Below are positions 2,926-38,883 of a DNA stretch of 38,883 nucleotides, in pieces. The stretch comes from a virus. A program made the translations under genes and the position numbers. Location of the stretch: positions 1-38,883 of the IMG/VR virus record IMGVR_UViG_3300042691_015424. One strand, written 5' to 3'. The number at the start of each line of letters is the position of its first letter. The first letter of the stretch is position 1. Under the pieces are notes generated by a model, which was given only the letters and a program-made list of their open reading frames with translations, was not told the DNA's origin and searched no databases.

Positions 2926-4242
2926 TTAATATTCGTAATTTTCAATCTTAGTTAGCTGAGGTATTATTTTTGCAATTATTTCACCTGGTTGACCATTTCT
3001 AAACTTTTTAATATCAATAATAAATAAATCTGTTGATGGCTGAGTAAATCCTTTTATTTCGATTTCATTTATTCCCATCATGTCTGGTCGATAGCAAAAA
3101 ATAACCATATCAGCATCCTGCTCTATTGCACCAGATTCACGCAAATCGCTTAACTGAGGTCTTTTATCTGCTCTCTTTTCAATATCCCTGCTCATTTGAC
3201 TTAAAGCAATTACAGGTACATTTAATTCTTTAGCAATTAATTTTAAACTGCGTGATATTTCGCTGATTTGTTGTTCCCTACTTGACCTTTTACTTTCAGA
3301 ATCCATTAATTGCAAATAATCAACTATTATCATTTGAACTCCTTTTTCCTTTACTAATTTTCTGGATTTATTTTTAAATTCAAATGTTGAAAGTGATGCA
3401 GATTCATCAATATAAAGAGGCATTTTATTTAAAATGTTACTCCTATCAATTAAAGTTTTTATTGAATTTTCATTTAACTTTTTCATGATTATATCCTGTG
3501 AGTTAATACCAGAAACAATACTTAGCAACCTACCAACTAATTGCTCCTTGCTCATTTCAAGACTAAAAAAACCAACAGGAACTTTATTTAAAATTGCCGA
3601 AACTGCAAAATTCATTGCTGCGGTTGATTTTCCAGAGCCAGGTCTACCTGCCAAAATTATTAAATCAGATTTTTGCCAACCATTTGTCTGAGCATCTAAT
3701 TTTTTTAATCCTGTTGCGATTCCAAATGTTTCTTTTATGTCTAAACTTTTATAAAGTTCAGCAATCAATTTATTTTTAATGCTTGTTAGGTCATATACAT
3801 TTGATGCAGGAATTTCACCAATTAATCCATCAATTTCTTTATTAAATTCATTAATTATGGCAAATGGGTCATAAACTTCATTTTCACTTTTATAAGCAAT
3901 TTGATTTCCTATTATAAATAATTTATTGCGTAAATAATTCTCAATCAATAATTTAATGTTTGTTGCAAGGTCAATACTACCTCCAGTTAAGTTACAAATC
4001 TTAGCAATAAACATTTTACCATCCTTAAGTTCGGAAAAATCACCATTTTTTCTGATTTGTTTAATGACCGAATTGATGTCTATAAAATTATTGCCTTTAA
4101 ATAGCGTTAGAATCGCTTTAAAAACGATTTCGTGACCTCTTATGGAGAAATGCTCAGACTTGAGGGTTTCAATCGCTAAAACGCAATCTAATGGGTTTTG
4201 GATGCAAACACCTAAAATTTTTCTTTCAATTTCCTCAATCAT
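2926..4242 (-). CDS. dnaB: Replicative DNA helicase, DnaB type
   Basis: The 438-aa length is normal for DnaB. An N-terminal helical domain (1-110) interacts with primase in the family. The RecA-like core shows Walker A GRPGSGKST at 199-207, the SLEMS motif at 227-231, Walker B VDYLQL at 307-312, SQMSR at 348-352 and the RPQLSDLRESGAIEQDAD segment at 361-378. It should unwind the fork as a hexameric ring and recruit host primase, since no primase is seen here. It overlaps the upstream replisome-organiser-like gene by 4 bp (ATGA), consistent with translational coupling of loader and helicase. Confidence 0.96.
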   Translation of the reverse strand: MIEEIERKILGVCIQNPLDCVLAIETLKSEHFSIRGHEIVFKAILTLFKGNNFIDINSVIKQIRKNGDFSELKDGKMFIAKICNLTGGSIDLATNIKLLIENYLRNKLFIIGNQIAYKSENEVYDPFAIINEFNKEIDGLIGEIPASNVYDLTSIKNKLIAELYKSLDIKETFGIATGLKKLDAQTNGWQKSDLIILAGRPGSGKSTAAMNFAVSAILNKVPVGFFSLEMSKEQLVGRLLSIVSGINSQDIIMKKLNENSIKTLIDRSNILNKMPLYIDESASLSTFEFKNKSRKLVKEKGVQMIIVDYLQLMDSESKRSSREQQISEISRSLKLIAKELNVPVIALSQMSRDIEKRADKRPQLSDLRESGAIEQDADMVIFCYRPDMMGINEIEIKGFTQPSTDLFIIDIKKFRNGQPGEIIAKIIPQLTKIENYEY

Positions 4243-4883
4243 AATAAATTTCCTGTTTTAAAAGTTGGTTTAATTTCTTGATTTTCAGAGTTTTTCTCCC
4301 AAGTTCTTACCGCTGCTTGCCAATTTTTCATTGGATTTTTACCAATCTTCCAACCATTTGCCTCATAGTAGTTCCAAAATTTATCTGGGTCAACCCCACG
4401 ATTTCGTTCAAAACAATATTTTTTAACCTCTTCCAAATTCGGTTTATGTTTTTCCCCCTTTACCCCCTTTTCTTTTTCATTAACATTAACATTAACATAT
4501 TCATAATAGTTGTCTAACTCTTTAGATACACTTAGGTAAGTGTTCAATTTATCAAGAGTAACACCTTGATTTTCAAGTAACTTAACAGCACTTATCTGTT
4601 GTTTTACTTTACTCTTTGGAAAATCTGGATATTGGAACTTTAAATAAGCAGGCATAAAAAAAATACCATCATTAAGTGTTACTAATCTGTTACCTAACTC
4701 TTTAAAAATTAATTCAAAATTTTTTATACCTGTTTGAAATTCACATAACTTTTTATTGAATTTAAATATACCTGCATGGTCACAATTTGTTATGTAATAG
4801 ATAAAAAATAATTTAGAATCCTTACTCAAATCGCTAAACCACTCATCATTAAATAAATTCGTGTCAATAAATCTTTTTGCCAT
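4239..4883 (-). CDS. Replication initiator / DnaD-like replisome organiser
   Basis: The 214-aa protein begins with a winged-helix-like region (SKDSKLFFIYYITNCDHAGI, about 20-40; about 1-95 overall) common in Bacteroidota phage replication proteins. A low-complexity linker full of VNVNVNEKEKG follows, then a C-terminal segment (WNYYEANGWKIGKNPMKNW) that resembles the DnaD/DnaB-like tail domain. Phage proteins of this type bind the origin and help load the helicase. Its place immediately before dnaB, with an ATGA overlap, supports that role. No ATPase motif is present, so it is not a DnaC-type loader. Family assignment is by pattern only. Confidence 0.7.
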   Translation of the reverse strand: MAKRFIDTNLFNDEWFSDLSKDSKLFFIYYITNCDHAGIFKFNKKLCEFQTGIKNFELIFKELGNRLVTLNDGIFFMPAYLKFQYPDFPKSKVKQQISAVKLLENQGVTLDKLNTYLSVSKELDNYYEYVNVNVNEKEKGVKGEKHKPNLEEVKKYCFERNRGVDPDKFWNYYEANGWKIGKNPMKNWQAAVRTWEKNSENQEIKPTFKTGNLL

Positions 4884-4886
4884 AAT

Positions 4887-5054
4887 CTATGCTTTAAATG
4901 TTTTTATAATATCATACCTACGTTTAACGCATGGAATTATCAAAACTCCAACAAACCATTTATTTTCTAACCTATCCCACATTAAATGAGATGTAGTTCC
5001 ATGTTCGGCAGTCCATTCAAAACATTCAGCCATAGCTTTTCTTAATTTTTTCAT
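4887..5054 (-). CDS. 55-aa hypothetical protein, first gene of replication operon
   Basis: An ATG at 5054 opens a 55-aa frame (MKKLRKAMAECFEWTAEHGT...) ending in TAG at 4887, 3 bp before the start of the DnaD-like gene. The middle reads like a folded small domain (TSHLMWDRLENKWFVGVLII). A T-rich hairpin lies just upstream, between promoter and start, so expression may depend on read-through. I do not recognise the family. Spacing and composition make it a real gene more likely than chance. Confidence 0.65.
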   Translation of the reverse strand: MKKLRKAMAECFEWTAEHGTTSHLMWDRLENKWFVGVLIIPCVKRRYDIIKTFKA

Positions 5055-5089
5055 GTTTTTAAATTTTAAAAAACCGAGCCAACAAAGGA

Positions 5090-5161
5090 CTACCTCACGC
5101 AGAAGTTTATTAAAAACTGCTTAGAGCAATGTTGGACTCGGTATATTTTAAATGTTTTCAT
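5090..5161 (-). CDS. Possible 23-aa leader peptide
   Basis: The ORF starts MKTFKIYRVQHCSKQFLINF and ends at a TAG inside the GAGGTAGTC pairing segment. It covers the 5' arm of the putative terminator. Its start codon lies one base after the GACTACCTC segment. A ribosome halting at the stop would cover the 3' arm of the terminator, so translation could allow read-through. It has no obvious run of one regulatory amino acid. A short chance ORF is also possible. Confidence 0.35.
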   Translation of the reverse strand: MKTFKIYRVQHCSKQFLINFCVR

Positions 5162-5176
5162 AGAGGTAGTCGGTGT

Positions 5177-5184
5177 CAAAATTA
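5177..5184 (-). promoter_or_regulatory. Possible -7 promoter element of replication operon
   Basis: The minus strand reads TAATTTTG, which matches the Bacteroidota TAnnTTTG element and sits just upstream of the leader RNA. No TTG is found at the usual -33 distance, where the strand is T-rich, so support is partial. Confidence 0.4.
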
Positions 5185-5238: not shown

Positions 5239-5246
5239 TAATTTTG
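5239..5246 (+). promoter_or_regulatory. Possible -7 promoter element before the 22-aa peptide
   Basis: TAATTTTG matches TAnnTTTG and lies 18 bases before the ATG at 5265. A clear -33 TTG is missing. It is one of the few candidate starts for the rightward late operon, although a terminator at 5339-5375 would have to be passed. Confidence 0.4.
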
Positions 5247-5264
5247 AAAATAAATAATTTAAAC

Positions 5265-5333
5265 ATGGCAAAGAAAGCAATGAAAAAAGCAGCAGTTAAA
5301 AAAATGGTTAAAACCGTTAAAGGCAAAAAATAA
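5265..5333 (+). CDS. 22-aa lysine-rich peptide
   Basis: The ORF reads MAKKAMKKAAVKKMVKTVKG and two further lysines. About half of its residues are Lys and there is no acidic residue. It has a TAnnTTTG element upstream and an intrinsic terminator directly behind it, so it looks like a separate one-gene unit at the head of the late arm. Its composition recalls histone-tail-like or DNA-condensing peptides, and basic tails also end two other tiny proteins near 35.3 kb. Function is unknown; a membrane-active peptide is another possibility. The short length means chance cannot be fully excluded. Confidence 0.5.
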   Translation: MAKKAMKKAAVKKMVKTVKGKK

Positions 5334-5338
5334 CTGCG

Positions 5339-5375
5339 AAAAACTACTGCATTAATTTTGTGGTAGTTTTTTTTT
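5339..5375 (+). terminator. Intrinsic terminator after the lysine-rich peptide
   Basis: AAAAACTAC (5339-5347) pairs with GTAGTTTTT (5363-5371), giving a 9-bp stem and 15-base loop; the T-run continues to 5375. It lies 6 bases after the peptide stop and 35 bases before the small terminase gene. Confidence 0.7.
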
Positions 5376-38811: not shown

Positions 38812-38883
38812 AAAAATAACACCTCCTTATAGTTTGAACTAATTGTATATATTTTATATAGAAATAACACCTCCTTATAGTTT
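38812..38883. repeat. Right part of 48-bp tandem repeat / terminal overlap
   Basis: The first 48-bp unit covers 38815-38862 and the second starts at 38863 and continues at position 26 onward of the left end. Bases 38838-38883 repeat bases 1-46. AACACCTCCTT is at 38818-38828 and 38866-38876. Confidence 0.85.

Follow-up and report, generated by a model that had tools for sequence, protein, structure and literature searches.

Attenuators of the pT181 type control a plasmid rep gene. The attenuator itself is controlled by kissing hairpins, and changes in their loops give orthogonal specificities (PMC3753616). In the satellite phage P4, the leader of the replication operon gives rise to a short RNA; this RNA pairs with complementary stretches of leader, and transcription ends prematurely, which keeps the replication genes silent (PMC4825925). 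The putL and putR sites of phage HK022 lie shortly after an early phage promoter and form two hairpins; put suppresses termination, and its copies share sequence (PMC9378689). Transcription of the Gifsy-1 prophage RNA IsrK either stops early or carries on into the genes that follow (PMC4825925). Candidate RNAs associated with phages also exist in Bacteroidetes. One of them, HMP_4078, lies near phage integrase and D5 domains and, unlike the leader described here, was reported without a predicted intrinsic terminator (PMC2864571, PMC8040213). Among candidate RNAs from comparative genomics (e.g. PMC2864571, PMC8040213), the accessible text contains no motif with kissing arms before rep or dnaB.

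The DNA analysed here (the window) is the whole 38,883-nucleotide stretch of an IMG/VR virus record. This 38.9-kb sequence has a GC content of 31.6% and contains tailed-phage genes for TerL, portal, tape measure, RecT, DnaB and other proteins; no integrase was recognised among the window ORFs scanned. Its promoter-like sequences are of the Bacteroidota type, and the virus is presumably one of Bacteroidota bacteria. A minus-strand replication block (a 55-aa ORF, a replication protein, DnaB, a ParB-like protein and a PAPS-reductase-like protein) starts directly 3' of a leader element, while the terminase side runs in the opposite direction. The leader is located where GC skew and gene direction switch. 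The parts of the element and the first genes downstream are:

5177..5184, minus strand: -7 promoter box TAATTTTG (TAnnTTTG, Bacteroidota type), from the sequence
5068..5173, minus strand: predicted leader or small RNA of ~105 nt, its start taken from the -7 box and its end from the T run
5163..5171, minus strand: arm 1, GACTACCTC, from sequence and complementarity
5090..5161, minus strand: 23-aa ORF MKTFKIYRVQHCSKQFLINFCVR, with ATG at 5161 and stop codon TAG at 5092-5090, from the sequence
5130..5142, minus strand: 5' half of the terminator stem, ACCGAG(T)CCAACA, with T5136 bulged, from sequence and folding
5099..5120, minus strand: small hairpin GCAG...CTGC within the terminator loop, from RNA folding
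5088..5096, minus strand: arm 2, GAGGTAGTC, complement of arm 1, in the terminator loop, from the sequence
5073..5084, minus strand: 3' half of the terminator stem, TGTTGGCTCGGT (TGTTGG-CTCGGT), from sequence and folding
5068..5073, minus strand: run of six T, tail of the intrinsic terminator, from the sequence
4887..5054, minus strand: first downstream ORF, 55 aa, without a family match
4239..4883, minus strand: replication protein (PHROG 15768; relatives are annotated as replication initiation protein)
2926..4242, minus strand: DnaB-like replicative helicase (PF03796, 4.8e-88; phrog_19)

The preliminary description had named the TAnnTTTG box, the arms, the leader ORF and the terminator, and a check of the sequence finds each of them on the minus strand where it had placed them. 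The two 9-base arms are indeed perfect complements that cross the main stem, and the ORF does begin one base past arm 1 and end within arm 2. The T-tailed 12-bp stem has its pairs and its tail; the bulged T at 5136 had gone unmentioned. A TTG at -33 of the -7 box is absent.

The C-terminal domain of the replication protein (4239..4883) is common to phage replication initiation proteins. A DNA similarity search of the window against phages gave no match, and relatives found through its TerL and replication protein were set aside as too distant or as belonging to unrelated phages. A unit of ~48 nt (ACTAATTGTATATATTTTATATAGAAATAACACCTCCTTATAGTTTCA...) is copied at both window ends (1-63 and 38814-38883) and the near-identical contig L010 likewise has it repeated at its end. 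The genome is probably circular and the contig broken within a repeat, so that the minus-strand operon may run on across the contig ends into RecT and exonuclease (38709-36092). Divergent from the leader, a tiny Lys-rich ORF, MAKKAMKKAAVKKMVKTVKGKK, is found at 5264-5332 (plus strand), with its own TAATTTTG box at 5239-5246 (plus strand) and a stem and T run downstream at 5338-5372. Small ORFs of 51-55 aa occur near the element in the window (4887-5054, minus strand), L120 (5025-5186) and L050 (1240-1395). Their starts (MKKLRKAMAECFEW..., MTGLRHALKEYF... and MKNLNEALNEF...) are alike by eye, and they may form one family of tiny early proteins.

The TAnnTTTG box alone is weak evidence, as ~66 copies occur in the window. 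Between 5184 and 3659 (leader to mid-dnaB), the leader's own box is the only minus-strand copy. The 9-mer arms are absent elsewhere in the window, with two matches observed against 0.03 expected, and the leader folds better than shuffled sequence (z -2.6). A scanner was used which scores a TAnnTTTG promoter, arm 1 and an intrinsic terminator whose loop contains arm 2. The window element (score 23.9) is its sole match in the window; none of 400 dinucleotide shuffles of the window reached this score (maximum 21.0). When the exact arm pattern was searched in IMG/VR, L010 was the only true relative; the other nine matches were chance arms in unrelated sequence. L010 is 100% identical to the window over 9,335 bases, so it carries no evolutionary information and covariation cannot be checked on the window copy.

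Relatives of DnaB were fetched from IMG/VR, GTDB genomes and GenBank phages and then scanned. An earlier version of the scanner had given three promoter-linked matches in 2.1 Mb (0.04 expected), two of them in other phages. The architecture, a terminator with a kissing loop, is present in 28 elements in 26 phage contigs, window included. The contigs are L312, L098, L304, L056 (two elements), L217/L112, L322, L225, L228/L087, L063, L300, L104, L301, L214, L226, L050, L212, L047 (two elements), L120, L107, L244, L215, the window and four cultured phages: Flavobacterium phage 11b (L387 +33643), Polaribacter phages P12002L (L391 -34458) and Danklef_1 (L208 +28575), and Croceibacter phage P2559S (L386 +33919). 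The membership of L322, L244 and L312 is less certain. The element of Freya_1 has the same sequence as that of Danklef_1, and the copy in Polaribacter P12002S is identical to that in P12002L. The six-base arms of P2559S are the same as those of L047.

Several matches were judged to be chance: L137 (upstream of dnaK), L119, L123, L389, L098+11027, L056+3609 and weak matches on the opposite strand. The Bacteroidota phages RAP44, 6H, CRP6 and Porphyromonas phage 005b were scanned without a convincing match. Genome searches with the rep or DnaB proteins returned almost only host DnaB.

At a score of at least 20, the 395 loci contain 24 matches (a few duplicates or judged-chance cases included), compared with 2, 0, 0, 0, 0 and 0 in six shuffles (mean 0.3). 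At a score of at least 18 there are 28, compared with 4, 0, 0, 1, 0 and 2 (mean 1.2). The score was tuned on early matches; most weight is therefore given to the controls from the opposite strand, host DNA and a promoter-free scan. In phage loci oriented by dnaB, 22 matches with a score of at least 18 lie on the dnaB strand (two judged chance, one element counted twice) and none on the opposite strand. Host chromosome, 1.05 Mb in all, yields no match that scores 16 or more. The promoter-free scan, which required two hairpins and kissing loops, gave 24 raw matches against 4-5 in shuffles; TAnnTTTG lies within 35 nt upstream in 15 of the 19 distinct places, where 2-3% would be expected. Structure, promoter and position thus coincide far beyond chance. 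Nearly all elements are on the dnaB/rep strand, usually 0.7-2.6 kb upstream of dnaB; for the members in oriented loci the range is 0.7-3.2 kb. The exception is the first element of L056, at 4.7 kb; the second lies at 1.6 kb.

In a typical member, a short 5' hairpin displays arm 1 (6-8 nt) as its loop, and the terminator hairpin ends in a second loop, arm 2, which is closed by its own stem of 3-5 bp. In L120, for example, these are GGTT[TGTGCG]AACC and GGAG[CGCACA]CTCC. As arm 1 sits in a hairpin loop in most members, the two hairpins would kiss. Neither the stem around arm 1 nor the stem closing loop 2 was a selection criterion; both are enriched compared with shuffled flanks (Fisher p 7e-12 and 2e-4 respectively). 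The predicted transcript consists almost entirely of the two hairpins. The 5' hairpin is missing in the window, L098, L300, L301/L214 and L312. The window element is an atypical subtype, with a weak promoter and a long loop as well as no 5' hairpin. Longer arms, of 9 nt in the window and 12 nt in L098, are placed very close to the predicted 5' end. Both the recurrence of the element and its usual form of two kissing hairpins lay beyond the view of the preliminary description.

Arm sequences differ among phages yet stay complementary. Since perfect arms were demanded by the scanner, the complementarity of its matches is partly by construction; its controls are the shuffles, the opposite strand, host DNA and one homologous pair, L112 and L087. 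These homologous copies differ by three compensatory arm pairs (GGTCTCAC/GTGAGACC and CGTTCCAC/GTGGAACG), while almost every base in the 5' half of the terminator, and from there up to arm 2, is the same. Compensatory change rests on this one clear pair. In MAFFT alignments of the whole family the arms fail to line up, so pairing was checked sequence by sequence and no covariance model was built. The covariation that the preliminary description had proposed to look for is thus seen for the arms, in one informative pair, and not for the ORF.

Apart from complementarity, few positions between the promoter and the T run are conserved, and no conserved ligand-pocket sequence is present. At curated cut-offs, none of the 4227 families of Rfam release 15 matches the window or any of 12 member loci; the best sub-threshold score was 16.7 bits (RT-9, E 3.8), and L104, L056 and L047 have no match at E of 1 or less. 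The riboswitch reading was rejected on these two grounds, in agreement with the earlier remark that no known riboswitch was recognisable. The C4 antisense RNA of Rfam is of the related P1/P7 type; homology to C4/CI RNA gave no Rfam match at the gathering threshold in the window and the 12 member loci. No description of such elements was found in the searchable literature. The same design, with ever-changing but matching arms, occurs in ~25 other phages; the window element therefore appears to belong to a family of phage leader RNAs, so far undescribed, that act as RNA switches.

L047 has two elements in one replication operon (+3413 and +4797), 1.4 kb apart, with the same arms (GTGCAG/CTGCAC) and different stems; the second lies inside the operon and has no promoter box of its own. 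Identical arms on different stems suggest that the copies recognise each other. In L056, the two elements have different arms. As a rule, an arm has no further exact partner within its locus. Two pairs of closely related phages, L120/L212 and L225/L228, differ at the element: matching blocks are mostly 89-94% identical (about 92% in flanking DNA), the similarity breaks off at the promoter or arm 1 and returns in or beyond the first gene, and both versions have matching arms. The exchanged segments are 5021-5746 in L120 and 4083-4767 in L212, and 3351-4397 in L225 and 3575-4186 in L228. This sharp break at a conserved promoter indicates that the element and the first gene of the replication operon travel as a cassette.

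Since the terminator stands between the only recognisable minus-strand promoter box and the replication genes, it should either restrict or gate their transcription. Its most probable role is to end transcription early in a conditional manner and so to restrict read-through into the replication operon. More fully, the leader would be a promoter-proximal terminator whose apical loop is complementary to its own 5' part, and which gates rep and dnaB by read-through; this reading is given about an even chance. Transcription would start at TAnnTTTG, and nascent arm 1 would pair with arm 2, either loop to loop or, in the window, as a bare 9-nt 5' arm to a loop. Such pairing would be compatible with the terminator stem and draw its halves together. 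Because it can coexist with the stem and would shorten the effective loop, we infer that pairing promotes termination. Most transcripts would then stop at the T run, giving a free RNA of ~80-115 nt, and the rep/dnaB operon would be expressed by read-through transcripts only. As the released RNA would carry both arms, it could act in trans, pairing with the next nascent leaders and giving feedback on replication-gene transcription. The L047 duplicate and the cassette swaps favour such action in trans. A choice between early termination and read-through, as proposed in the preliminary description, is still the best reading of the leader; the leader peptide as a working part of it is unsupported.

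Translation of the 23-aa ORF could in principle decide between terminator and read-through, as the ORF links the two arms and a ribosome that has reached its stop codon would mask the first bases of the terminator 3' arm. Closed ORFs are also found in L098 (23 aa) and L120 (27 aa). No conserved short ORF was found, however: 15 of 26 elements lack an ATG ORF of at least 8 aa, and the ORFs of the others are unrelated in sequence, several running through the terminator. The window ORF is probably incidental and a leader-peptide attenuator very improbable. An antiterminator of the put kind, in which paired hairpins bind the elongating polymerase and allow read-through of this and later terminators, is decidedly improbable. 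Two hairpins at the very beginning of an early phage transcript do recall putL of HK022 (~70 nt), but HK022 putRNAs share sequence and contact the polymerase (PMC9378689), whereas here mainly complementarity is kept and the second hairpin, with its T tail, is the terminator itself. A stable free-standing small RNA (a primer, origin transcript or titrating RNA), with any effect on the operon incidental, is improbable. Its transcript would be almost only two hairpins and it lies at the switch of GC skew and gene direction; against this are the strict same-strand position before replication genes and the L047 copy within the operon, which lacks its own promoter box. Pure chance, i.e. an ordinary terminator with accidental complementary 9-mers, is hardly credible. 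The DNA is AT-rich, TAnnTTTG boxes are many and the element was chosen from the whole window, but no window shuffle reached its score and the same design stands in the same place in the other phages.

A purely RNA-based specificity in trans, with a short RNA forcing termination on an incoming or sister leader (immunity, superinfection or copy number), is possible but rather unlikely as the main function. It would fit premature termination at a site ahead of the replication genes, which P4 also shows (PMC4825925), the arms as the fast-changing part in L112/L087, the exchange of element and first gene between otherwise near-identical phages, the identical arms in L047 and the usual lack of other exact arm partners in a locus. 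Against it are the different arms in L056 and the lack of any separate antisense RNA in the sequences seen; ordinary mosaicism could also explain the cassette exchange. No integrase is annotated in the regions of P2559S, 11b and P12002L examined, so lysogenic immunity is unlikely to be the common function. The different arm pairs of L056 and the apparently virulent carriers likewise argue against simple lysogenic immunity. A broader version, in which Bacteroidota phages, lytic ones included, use RNA-only recognition, with released RNA silencing the replication genes of genomes that have the same loop and with loop cassettes swapped, is unlikely.

The gated terminator, as preferred here, resembles P4 CI RNA immunity (seqA/seqC): both have a replication-operon leader in which a terminator is combined with leader segments complementary to each other. 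In P4 the CI RNA is processed and its target sites are separate; here a single primary RNA of ~105 nt contains both partners, the 3' hairpin of the leader is the terminator itself, the phylum is different and several carriers appear virulent. Kissing hairpins at an attenuator of replication genes are shared with pT181. Unlike in pT181, no counter-transcribed antisense RNA is seen: the TAnnTTTG box on the plus strand at 5239-5246 is directed away from the leader and would give no antisense RNA to it, and between 3803 and 5239 the plus strand has no box of this promoter type. Upstream sequestering of the terminator 5' half, another pT181 feature, has a mean pairing probability of 0.00 in the window and 0.00-0.45 in other members; a classical antiterminator was rejected for the window on this value. 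IsrK is similar in ending early or being read through, and differs in architecture and host; kissing arms are not described for it in the accessible text of PMC4825925. In its mode of action the family would come closest to the immunity leader of P4 and to attenuators of the pT181 type, but it fails tested features of both. It is an undescribed type among the RNA-controlled transcription attenuators of replication genes.

The control of replication genes in Bacteroidota phages is, to our knowledge, poorly known. The element recurs in the cultured phages 11b, P12002L, Danklef_1 and P2559S, which makes this control testable by ordinary methods. If the loops act in trans, nature would here offer a compact set of kissing-loop terminators matched to one another, which could help to explain how phages exclude each other and supply RNA parts for Bacteroidota genetics; if they also serve recognition, they would form an RNA incompatibility or superinfection code. 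It looks as if the family would control the timing of viral DNA copying.
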